Shown: piece by piece, positions 12,022 to 32,709 of the stretch
Position numbering within the stretch: position 1 is the stretch's first letter
How the letters are laid out: each line of letters opens with the position of its first letter
Origin: a virus
Reading direction: 5' to 3' (one strand)
DNA: 52,300 bases
IMG/VR virus record: IMGVR_UViG_3300023174_000229
Span: 1 to 52,300 of that record
The notes under the pieces: generated by a model
The model's input: only the letters and a program-made list of their open reading frames with translations
The model's database searches: none
Told to the model about the DNA's origin: nothing
Program-made: the position numbers and the translations under genes

Positions 12022-12288
12022 ATGCCTAAATCAACACCAAGAAAGCTGGAATATCAAAAGGCTTACAACGCTAAACCATCAGAAGTGGAGAAGCGTGTTA
12101 AGAATAATGCAGCTAGAAGAGAAGCTATTAAAGCAGGGAAGGTTGCTGTTGGTGATGGTAAAGACGTTGCACATAAAAGATCTCTAAACAATGGTGGCGG
12201 TAACCACCCATCCAATCTAAAAGTAGAACCAAAGAGAACTAATAGAGGTTGGAGAAAAGGATCTGCCAGCTACAATCCAGATAAATAA
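12022..12288 (+). CDS. Small HNH-like protein
   Basis: An 88-residue basic protein, start chosen at ATG 12022, with AGGAG about 11 nt upstream. The C-terminal half carries D-V-A-H-K-R-S-L-N-N-G-G-G-N-H-P-S-N-L-K, which resembles the core of minimal HNH proteins (D-x-D-H-K-x-P-L-x-x-G-G-S-N-x-x-x-N-L). The first His of the usual DH pair is present, but the pair is A-H here rather than D-H, so nuclease activity is uncertain. It is the last rightward gene before the tRNA, and its stop codon abuts the 3' end of that tRNA on the other strand. Confidence 0.65.
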   Translation: MPKSTPRKLEYQKAYNAKPSEVEKRVKNNAARREAIKAGKVAVGDGKDVAHKRSLNNGGGNHPSNLKVEPKRTNRGWRKGSASYNPDK

Positions 12289-12364
12289 TGGCCCACCCGA
12301 TAGGAATCGAACCTATGACCCACAGCTTAGAAGGCTGTTGCTCTATCCACTGAGCTACGGGCAG
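12289..12364 (-). tRNA. tRNA-Arg (anticodon UCU)
   Basis: Read on the minus strand the 76 nt fold fully: acceptor CTGCCCG pairs with CGGGTGG (two G-U pairs), D arm GCTC/GAGC, anticodon arm ACAGC/GCTGT with loop CTTCTAA (anticodon TCT), variable loop GGGTC, T arm ATAGG/CCTAT with loop TTCGATT, discriminator G and an encoded CCA at 12291-12289. It would read AGA, a codon that looks frequent throughout the window. The gene is complete, so it is a phage tRNA rather than an att remnant. Its last base is adjacent to the stop codon of the convergent gene. Confidence 0.95.
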
Positions 12365-30942: not shown

Positions 30943-30989
30943 TTAAAAAACCCTTTATTAAGATATTAACGGCATCCTAATTAACACCG

Positions 30990-31020
30990 CCAATGCATGC
31001 TAATTAATGACATGCATTGG
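30990..31020. repeat. Perfect 10-bp inverted repeat upstream of leftward operon
   Basis: CCAATGCATG and CATGCATTGG are separated by 11 nt, 48 bp upstream of the first early start codon. It could be an operator or a leader hairpin. Confidence 0.8.
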
Positions 31021-31074
31021 ATAAAGCAATAACCCGTGACAGTCAATTAGCCCAGTCATTATTGCATCGACAAT

Positions 31075-31094
31075 ATAAAAACAATTGTTTTTAT
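31075..31094. repeat. Perfect 20-bp palindrome
   Basis: ATAAAAACAATTGTTTTTAT reads identically on both strands. Such a gapless palindrome in a divergent promoter region is a good candidate operator for a dimeric regulator. Confidence 0.85.
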
Positions 31095-31202
31095 CTCTGA
31101 ATTAAACGCTAGCATTTAATTAATGCGGCTTTTTTAATCCTTTGATTCTCGCACTAGCATATAAGTAATCAGCCTATATGATCAAAGCGGTAGCCGTTTT
31201 TC

Positions 31203-31239
31203 GTAAGCTTTACAGTGTCACTGTCTGACACTGTCTTAC
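31203..31239. repeat. Long imperfect hairpin (14 bp stem with bulge)
   Basis: ACAGTGTCA and TGACACTGT form a perfect 9-bp stem with a 5-nt loop; flanking GTAAG and CTTAC extend it by 5 bp with a 4-nt bulge on one side. Confidence 0.8.
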
Positions 31240-31332
31240 CGGCATGCTCTATATAGCAGATACCATGCCAGCATCAAAAACCCGCTGTAACCCGCATTCT
31301 ACCGTGGAAGCTTCCAGAAAATAGAATTAAAG

Positions 31333-31372
31333 CGGCAAGCTTTGCCGGTAGAGTTTGCCGGTAGTACGGCAA
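31333..31372. repeat. Array of CGGCAA/TTGCCG dyads
   Basis: CGGCAA (31333), TTGCCG (31342), TTGCCG (31355) and CGGCAA (31367) lie within 40 bp. They form two adjacent hairpins, with direct repeats TTTGCCGGTAG at 31341 and 31354. This looks like a multi-site protein-binding or origin element. Confidence 0.8.
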
Positions 31373-31523
31373 TAATGTCGTTATGGGATTTTGTATGAGT
31401 GCTGGTGCGGATCGCGAGCGACTAATAAAGAAAAACGCGCACGCACGCGAGTAGCATAAAGCGTGCCAACGGCTCTATCATGCTATTTTTTGTTACTATT
31501 TTAAGGGTAAACCCTATGCCTCT

Positions 31524-31557
31524 AAAACGCTGTAAAACGGCCTCAGAGCGTTTTTTT
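31524..31557 (+). terminator. Terminator-like hairpin within the non-coding region
   Basis: AAAACGCT and AGCGTTTT form an 8-bp stem (extended by CTG/CAG with one mismatch), followed by a run of T ending at 31557. It would stop rightward transcription, although no gene lies to its left on the plus strand within this region. It may end a small RNA. Confidence 0.6.
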
Positions 31558-31636
31558 CGTTTTTTGGTACTAGGGTACTAACCCGACGACGATCGAATGC
31601 TGTAGAGCGTTTTAGACGATTTTCATGCTACGTTTT

Positions 31637-32060
31637 AGAATGAAAAAATCGTTGTTTTTCCTAGAATGAGTGCTGGCCTGCATGGATTGACTATGTTGTC
31701 AACTTAGGGTTTCCCCTATGTGCAACAATGCGAAAGTGTGCTAGGCATTTTTTCGTTATAGGCATTGGAACGAATGGGGTAGGGGTAATGCTAAAGTTTA
31801 GGATGAAATTGTCGACCGCTCATTCTAGATGCGAATCATTCTCATTATATCATCCGATAGAATATAAAGTTATATAATATAACTATAAACTTATCAGTAG
31901 CAGAATGATTATGATCCAAAGCATAGTTATGCTCAGCGGTACGATGTTGCGTTACAGCATAGTGAGTGCTTCTAGAATGATTATGGCGCATGGTATCATA
32001 CTTTATCGCATGATAGTTATCTTTTGCATAAGCAGTCGTAATTAATTTTGGTATCATTCT
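31637..32060. repeat. Cluster of seven AGAATGA iterons
   Basis: Exact AGAATGA or its complement TCATTCT occurs at 31637, 31663, 31820, 31836, 31902, 31974 and 32054, in both orientations. Two copies extend to TCTAGAATGA (31820 inverted and 31971) and two to AGAATGATTATG (31902 and 31974). About 0.05 copies of a 7-mer are expected by chance in 424 bp. This is typical of an iteron-type origin or a multi-operator regulatory region. Confidence 0.75.
31868..31884. repeat. AT-rich dyad
   Basis: AGTTATAT and ATATAACT flank a single A, giving a near-gapless 17-bp palindrome made almost only of A and T. It could be a DNA-unwinding element within the iteron cluster. Confidence 0.7.
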
Positions 32061-32076
32061 AATGTATACTACGACC

Positions 32077-32106
32077 GGGGGGCGCGTGGGCCACTGGGGG
32101 TATGGG
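32077..32106 (+). other. G-quadruplex motif
   Basis: Four G-runs (6, 3, 5 and 3 G) separated by loops of 5, 5 and 3 nt fit the canonical intramolecular G-quadruplex pattern. It is an isolated GC-rich island in AT-rich DNA, between the iterons and the parS-like site. Confidence 0.7.
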
Positions 32107-32112
32107 CGCTAT

Positions 32113-32134
32113 CTGTGTATAGCATCGTACACAG
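32113..32134. repeat. 7-bp inverted repeat CTGTGTA/TACACAG
   Basis: A perfect 7-bp stem with an 8-nt loop follows the G-rich island directly. It could be an operator or hairpin. Confidence 0.65.
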
Positions 32135-32204
32135 AAGGGTAAAATTGACTTGTTAACCACTTTGTATTTTTGTTAGTGTCTATAACATCGGCAACACAAC
32201 AAAA

Positions 32205-32220
32205 TGTTCCATGTGAAACA
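32205..32220. promoter_or_regulatory. parS-like site
   Basis: TGTTCCATGTGAAACA matches the chromosomal ParB/Spo0J binding site TGTTCCACGTGAAACA at 15 of 16 positions; the single change is in the centre (CACGTG to CATGTG). Bacterial parS sites load the ParB CTPase clamp. No ParA or ParB gene was seen in the window, so host ParB would have to act. The identification is by motif only. Confidence 0.5.
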
Positions 32221-32221
32221 A

Positions 32222-32248
32222 TCTAAATGAGAACCATTCTTATTTAGA
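32222..32248. repeat. 27-bp dyad next to the parS-like site
   Basis: TCTAAAT-G-AGAA, a 3-nt centre CCA, then TTCT-T-ATTTAGA: eleven Watson-Crick pairs and one G-T. It begins 2 bp after the parS-like site. The AGAA/TTCT core partly resembles Fur-box hexamers, but that is weak. Confidence 0.7.
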
Positions 32249-32408
32249 AAAGCTTCTGTATTTATTTTGTTGTATAAATGAGACAGACTGGAAAGTCTTT
32301 ACTACACAACCCATTCTTTTCCCTATAACATCTACATAGTTGATGTAGACAACATCAGCCTGTAAAAATGATTACTTATTTTATACATTTTTATATGCTG
32401 ATGTTACG

Positions 32409-32438
32409 CTGACAGCAACCTACATAGATCATTATAAT
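32409..32438 (+). promoter_or_regulatory. Candidate sigma70 promoter of the rightward operon
   Basis: CTGACA (32409-32414), an 18-bp spacer and TATAAT (32433-32438) match the -35 and -10 consensus at 5/6 and 6/6. The -10 box overlaps the ATG at 32437, so a transcript from here could not include that start codon. Confidence 0.55.
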
Positions 32439-32709
32439 GGAACAACAAAAAATATTTAGAACAAGAAAAGAAGTAGAACAAACAGGAGAAGCTTTTGTTT
32501 TTCCATATTCTGTTGTTTCAGAAGCATATAAACTATTGCATGAAGGAAAAGAAACAAAAATACATCTACCGCATAGTGATGTTTATTTTGTTAGGGCTGC
32601 ACTGGAAAGTAAGAGTGGCTATTTCTTTCCTTTAAATGTTATAGAAGAAGCCATGCGATTAGAAGGCTGGCGAGAACAAAGACATGTTTATTTAGGAAAA
32701 GATTTATAA
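32437..32709 (+). CDS. First rightward gene, unknown function
   Basis: A 90-residue protein with F-P-Y-S-V-V-S-E-A-Y-K-L-L, D-V-Y-F-V-R-A-A-L and F-F-P-L-N-V-I-E-E-A-M-R-L-E segments; the paired F-P-x-x-V-x-E-A-x-x-L pattern looks like an internal duplication. No ribosome site precedes ATG 32437, and a TATAAT box overlaps it, so either an upstream promoter is used, the message is leaderless, or the true start is elsewhere. Function unknown. Confidence 0.55.
   Translation: MEQQKIFRTRKEVEQTGEAFVFPYSVVSEAYKLLHEGKETKIHLPHSDVYFVRAALESKSGYFFPLNVIEEAMRLEGWREQRHVYLGKDL

Follow-up and report, generated by a model that had tools for sequence, protein, structure and literature searches.

A cluster of seven AGAATGA heptamers within 424 bp of a phage genome raises the question of what this locus does, and whether the heptamer is its repeat unit. 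An earlier note on this DNA had proposed a candidate replication origin or multi-operator with AGAATGA as the iteron. The window, 52.3 kb of DNA, is an entire virus record (IMGVR_UViG_3300023174_000229) and its phage is an HMO-2011-like marine phage. The virion protein shares 66% identity with the counterpart in Puniceispirillum phage HMO-2011, and the two-arm gene layout is that of HMO-2011. Among cultured phages, the DNA polymerase has only distant relatives (best identity 44%). The left arm, on the minus strand, encodes an integrase, a primase-helicase, a family-A DNA polymerase, an exonuclease, ThyX and ribonucleotide reductase, and the right arm, on the plus strand, a virion protein, terminase and portal. 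Between them lies a non-coding divergent intergenic region of 1.5 kb (30943-32436; 1,494 bp), in which the sole open reading frame of at least 50 aa is an overlapping 70-aa frame on the minus strand (31845-32057). A conserved GP88-family gene (PF17338; 29815-30672, minus strand) forms the left flank, and ORF90 (32437-32709, plus strand), the first gene of the structural arm, encodes a small all-helical protein. The gap between GP88 and ORF90 occupies a homologous position in relatives and measures 1.3-2.0 kb there; both genes and the gap are retained even where the proteins are ~40% identical. A search of genome contigs with the structural protein for a prophage or host gave no match.

Cumulative GC skew, one of the checks that the earlier note had suggested, was computed over the whole record; its minimum at 31303 falls within the intergenic region, a position confounded by transcription direction, and its maximum at 12260. 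Since the genes follow the direction of their own arm, skew is unable to separate replication from transcription. The minimum in HMO-2011 falls in the equivalent region. A tRNA-Arg(TCT) gene (12289-12364) lies at the convergence of the gene arms, where cumulative GC skew peaks, and is possibly the attachment site of the integrase.

The seven exact heptamers were recovered at the positions and in the orientations first described, four on the plus strand (31637-31643, 31663-31669, 31902-31908 and 31974-31980) and three on the minus strand (31820-31826, 31836-31842 and 32054-32060), against an expectation of ~0.08 in 424 bp. Counting over the full genome gave 11 copies in the record versus 9.5 expected, with only four outside the cluster. 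Two extended forms were each present twice, TCTAGAATGA at 31820-31829 (minus) and 31971-31980 (plus) and AGAATGATTATG at 31902 and 31974, and the AT-rich dyad is real, its arms occupying 31865-31875 and 31877-31887. Dinucleotide shuffling of the 1,494-bp region (3,000 rounds) never gave a 7-mer with seven non-overlapping copies within 424 bp; the maximum for any 7-mer was six, reached once. Some tiles of real sequence elsewhere in the record also contain seven copies of other words, and because a few tiles do so the count is unusual, not unique.

Alignment with six related contigs that have the homologous region (L139, L091, L089, L092, L090 and L156) revealed a degenerate 18-bp tandem array on the plus strand (31890-32033). 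Its eight units start at 31890, 31908, 31926, 31944, 31962, 31980, 31998 and 32016 and share a core RTTAT with ATN before it; two additional sites follow at 32038 and 32060 in 22-bp steps. The top autocorrelation lag was 18 in all seven sequences (P<0.0005 in five, 0.002 in the window and 0.0075 in L091), with P values that are optimistic because the tested stretch was chosen after inspection, and the seven sequences do not make seven independent tests because close relatives share ancestry. When all lags were allowed for, P became borderline in the window (~0.05) and 0.13 in L091. The window and L091 have eight units and the other five sequences six, between matching end units, the difference in length being exactly 36 bp, or two 18-bp units. 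The core varies less than the spacer (10/98 versus 39/154 variable positions, P=0.003). A weight matrix derived from the array units, and hence trained on the array, matched nothing else in the window on either strand. Tandem Repeats Finder did not detect the 18-bp array. Lags in multiples of three had prompted a peptide-coding origin of the periodicity as a candidate, which was rejected. The frame is open through the array of the window and has an in-frame stop in L090; 8/9 codon changes between the window and L091 are non-synonymous, as are most in all pairs, so the array is not a conserved peptide. Tandem, phased and directly repeated units of the kind that iteron origins carry are thus present, weakly so in the window taken alone.

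The array adjoins easily unwound DNA, as it does in iteron origins. A nearest-neighbour scan of the 52.3-kb record placed its least stable 50-bp duplex at 31844-31893, a candidate unwinding element that is AT-rich, includes the dyad at 31865-31887 and touches the first array unit. A similar dip in stability lies immediately upstream of the array in L091, L139, L092 and L089. The dip overlaps the first array units in L090, and in L156 it lies ~120 bp upstream, not adjoining the array.

How the heptamers relate to this array bears on their status as iterons. Only the copies at 31902 and 31974 are in phase with it; both lie at unit boundaries (AGAATG/ATTATG, the slash marking the boundary) and they are 72 bp, or four units, apart. 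The two leftmost copies are out of array phase, the copy at 31836 lies within a Fur-box-like palindrome and that at 32054 adjoins the 22-bp-spaced tail of the array. L091 has five copies of the heptamer, L139 three, and L089, L092 and L090 one each; four of the seven positions are retained in L091, and that at 31663 in L139 as well. With such variation among relatives and most copies out of register with the 18-bp periodicity, AGAATGA was ruled out as a conserved iteron. It was also rejected as a Fur half-site throughout, only the fourth copy lying within a good palindrome. The heptamer itself is probably not the iteron as far as the sequences tell, and appears largely to be a by-product, two copies being array junctions, one part of the Fur-like palindrome and the others scattered. 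Hence, the proposal of an origin or multi-operator holds for the location, which is a control region and probable origin, and fails for AGAATGA as the repeat unit.

To the right of the array lies a non-coding element of ~85 bp (32080-32165, plus strand; GGGCCAC..GGGG ... ACACAG ... GTTAACCAC) that is deeply conserved among HMO-2011-type phages. HMO-2011, CRP-1 and at least 120 viral contigs share it; the loci with the element are L150, L281 and at least 120 pattern loci (L160-L279). ORF90 lies downstream on the same strand in 105/105 long-enough contigs among the element matches listed, and in the relatives examined a member of its family likewise borders the region on the right. Rfam returned no match in the region of the window or of five relatives, the deep-conserved element included. 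The element could act as a packaging site or a leader, or belong to the origin. A strong RNA fold was predicted over 32100-32436 (z -4.8), which may derive from DNA palindromes. A sigma-70-like promoter (CTGACA-18-TATAAT; 32409-32438, plus strand; 11/12) is conserved and overlaps the annotated start of ORF90. The structure model of ORF90, built with aligned rows from the window and locus sequences only, comprised four confident helices without a structural match, and a recognisable DNA-binding fold was therefore discarded; as an initiator, ORF90 is a candidate by position only. The absence of a recognised initiator was upheld: the proteins scanned yielded no Rep- or O-type initiator, many small ones being of unassigned function. 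Two further observations concern this flank. A short frame (32279-32330), running from ATGAGACA to a TAA stop and closely preceded by a TATAAA-like sequence, persists in relatives and possibly encodes a leader peptide. A 20-bp inverted repeat (32351-32405, 90% complementary) surrounds an AT-rich loop between an invariant palindrome and ORF90, and is largely conserved in relatives.

This invariant palindrome, CTACATAGTTGATGTAG (32332-32348), is identical in all seven relatives, and half of it is repeated at 32420-32432. A parS-like site, TGTTCCATGTGAAACA (32205-32220), matches 14/16 positions and is the sole site in the window with at most two mismatches to TGTTTCACGTGAAACA, the threshold used in PMC10197239 for chromosomal-type parS; the corresponding site scores 15/16 in L139, L089 and L092. 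By the same measure L208/L250, L376 and L285 have no mismatch, with a perfect parS within the region and surroundings that hardly align with one another. These amount to three mutually unalignable lineages; parS usually lies close to oriC, which favours an origin here. A 16/16 parS occurred in 2/122 related regions, and the best of 504 control pieces reached 14/16. Because at least 120 viral contigs overall carry a perfect parS, it is not peculiar to HMO-2011-type phages. Neither a ParA nor a ParB gene was recognised in the phage, and TGTTTCATGTGAAACA is a candidate ParB target predicted from its sequence.

Two Fur-box-like sites, the best of the whole window, scored 16/18 against a generalised consensus, the 19-bp palindromic consensus being that of PMC4506495. 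The site GATGCGAATCATTCTCATT (31828-31846) is found in the window only, and the palindrome AATGAGAACCATTCTTATT (32226-32244) is kept in L091, L139, L092, L089 and L090 (15-17/18). One of 100 shuffles of the window reached a Fur score of 16. As the classical E. coli Fur consensus is matched at 14/19 positions at most, we regard Fur binding as a lead. Good Fur-box-like matches were also seen in the intergenic regions of L137 and L240, the latter with two copies of TAATGATAATGAGAATTGTTATCA.

More divergent relatives carry other repeats at the same address. In the distant relative L030 the gap between GP88 and ORF90 holds an 11-bp unit repeated perfectly 5.5 times, and exact DnaA boxes (TTRTCCACA) occur there only, four in number. 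MW202701 has 17 copies of the 8-bp GCTGTAGT upstream of ORF90; the gaps of L070 and L083 contain a few 11-bp repeats. Tandem repeats with a score of at least 40 were present in 34/84 such regions versus 26/133 control pieces, counted without dereplication. HMO-2011 showed no significant or strong array in its own region, and the region of the window has no match to the consensus DnaA box TTWTNCACA of oriC-like origins. Differing repeats at one address are expected from diverging pairs of initiator and iteron, and pairs of regulator and operator could produce them too.

Taken as a whole, the region is very probably a protein-binding control region. We put at roughly 0.55 the probability that it is a composite cis-acting control region of this HMO-2011-like phage that contains the replication origin, the origin function itself being predicted from sequence. 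Support for an origin comes from the array with its phase, conservation and change in copy number by whole units, from the low-stability stretch, from synteny and from the lineage-specific arrays of relatives; the skew minimum and, at the equivalent position in relatives, DnaA boxes or parS add to it. We infer a mechanism in which an initiator supplied by phage or host would bind the degenerate 18-bp array (core ATN-RTTAT), melting would start there, with the bound initiator opening the adjoining stretch 31844-31893, and the opened DNA would let the primase-helicase and family-A polymerase of the phage load.

A counterpoint to the origin is that the array also lies beside the point where the right-arm operon begins, a place equally suited to an array of operators. 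According to the main rival reading, which is possible if rather unlikely, the array and the palindromes (Fur-like, parS-like and CTACATAGTTGATGTAG) are regulator sites for the divergent arms and have no role in starting replication. Divergent genes on both flanks, the conserved promoter by ORF90, whose spacer repeats half of the invariant palindrome, and a Fur-like palindrome conserved in five relatives would fit such a multi-operator. However, six to eight phased units that vary by whole units beside the part of the record that melts most easily are more typical of an origin, relatives have tandem arrays and DnaA boxes in the same region, and a repressor or activator gene was looked for and none recognised. 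Considerably less probable is a role in packaging (cos/pac) or partition, in which terminase would bind the array or the GC-rich element, or ParB would bind through the parS-like site, with the origin elsewhere. The GC-rich conserved element at 32080-32165 does precede the arm with the structural and terminase genes, and some relatives do carry a perfect parS; yet the terminase genes are more than 4 kb distant, the record has no boundary at the region, the phage lacks a recognised ParA or ParB gene and parS alone leaves the array unexplained. That the heptamers cluster by chance, through word enrichment in AT-rich non-coding DNA, and share no function is hardly credible. Poor conservation of AGAATGA in most relatives, a phase shared by only 2/7 copies and the tiles elsewhere with seven copies of other words speak for coincidence, but none of the 3,000 region shuffles reached seven, two copies fall exactly on unit junctions at a distance of four units and 4/7 positions persist in L091.

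The origin of phage lambda consists of iterons bound by the O protein with AT-rich DNA adjoining, its repeats being ~18 bp long and partly dyad-symmetric. The phased, partly dyad-symmetric ~18-bp repeats beside an easily melted AT-rich stretch in the window resemble this arrangement; unlike lambda ori, the array here is intergenic instead of lying in an O-like gene, its units are far more degenerate and no O or P homologue was recognised in the window. Origins of iteron plasmids and plasmid-prophages (P1 oriR, RepA-type) likewise have non-coding, directly repeated tandem units that vary in number and sequence among relatives, whereas the window has no RepA-like gene and its phage supplies an integrase together with a primase-helicase and polymerase of its own. 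Extrachromosomal mycobacterial prophages have their own origins, mostly without repA and some with parS repeats (PMC7157519); they carry parABS and, in those without RepA, rely on a region that expresses a noncoding RNA (PMC7157519), features beyond those recognised in the window. Bacterial oriC with parS nearby has been reviewed (PMC7022226). The region recalls it in combining DnaA boxes (L030), parS (a near-match in the window, perfect in L208/L250, L285 and L376) and AT-rich DNA, and differs in that the genome is viral and the features are spread over lineages, not all in one.

In the sea, HMO-2011-type phages rank with the dominant groups of viruses (PMC9038755). The modular genome described there is the same, and in HMO-2011 and CRP-1 the equivalent region is likewise bordered by ORF90 and the deep-conserved element; the available part of that paper contains no description of an origin or of the equivalent intergenic region. 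Nor did the literature searched hold an account of a replication origin for these phages. It is doubtful that HMO-2011-type phages have a chromosome-like origin, comprising lineage-specific iteron arrays or DnaA boxes beside an unwinding element, a parS that recruits host ParB, and iron-responsive Fur operators. In such an origin ParB would be brought to newly replicated phage DNA and parS would have been gained repeatedly in lineages that do not align, which we likewise consider a speculative and unlikely course of events.

The analysis provides a specific 0.2-kb origin candidate for HMO-2011-type phages, and a comparative rule for locating it across the group, namely the gap between GP88 and ORF90 upstream of the conserved 85-bp element. 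The recurrent perfect parS in this region would, if true, tie the replication of these phages to the segregation machinery of their hosts, a link that is testable in cultured members.
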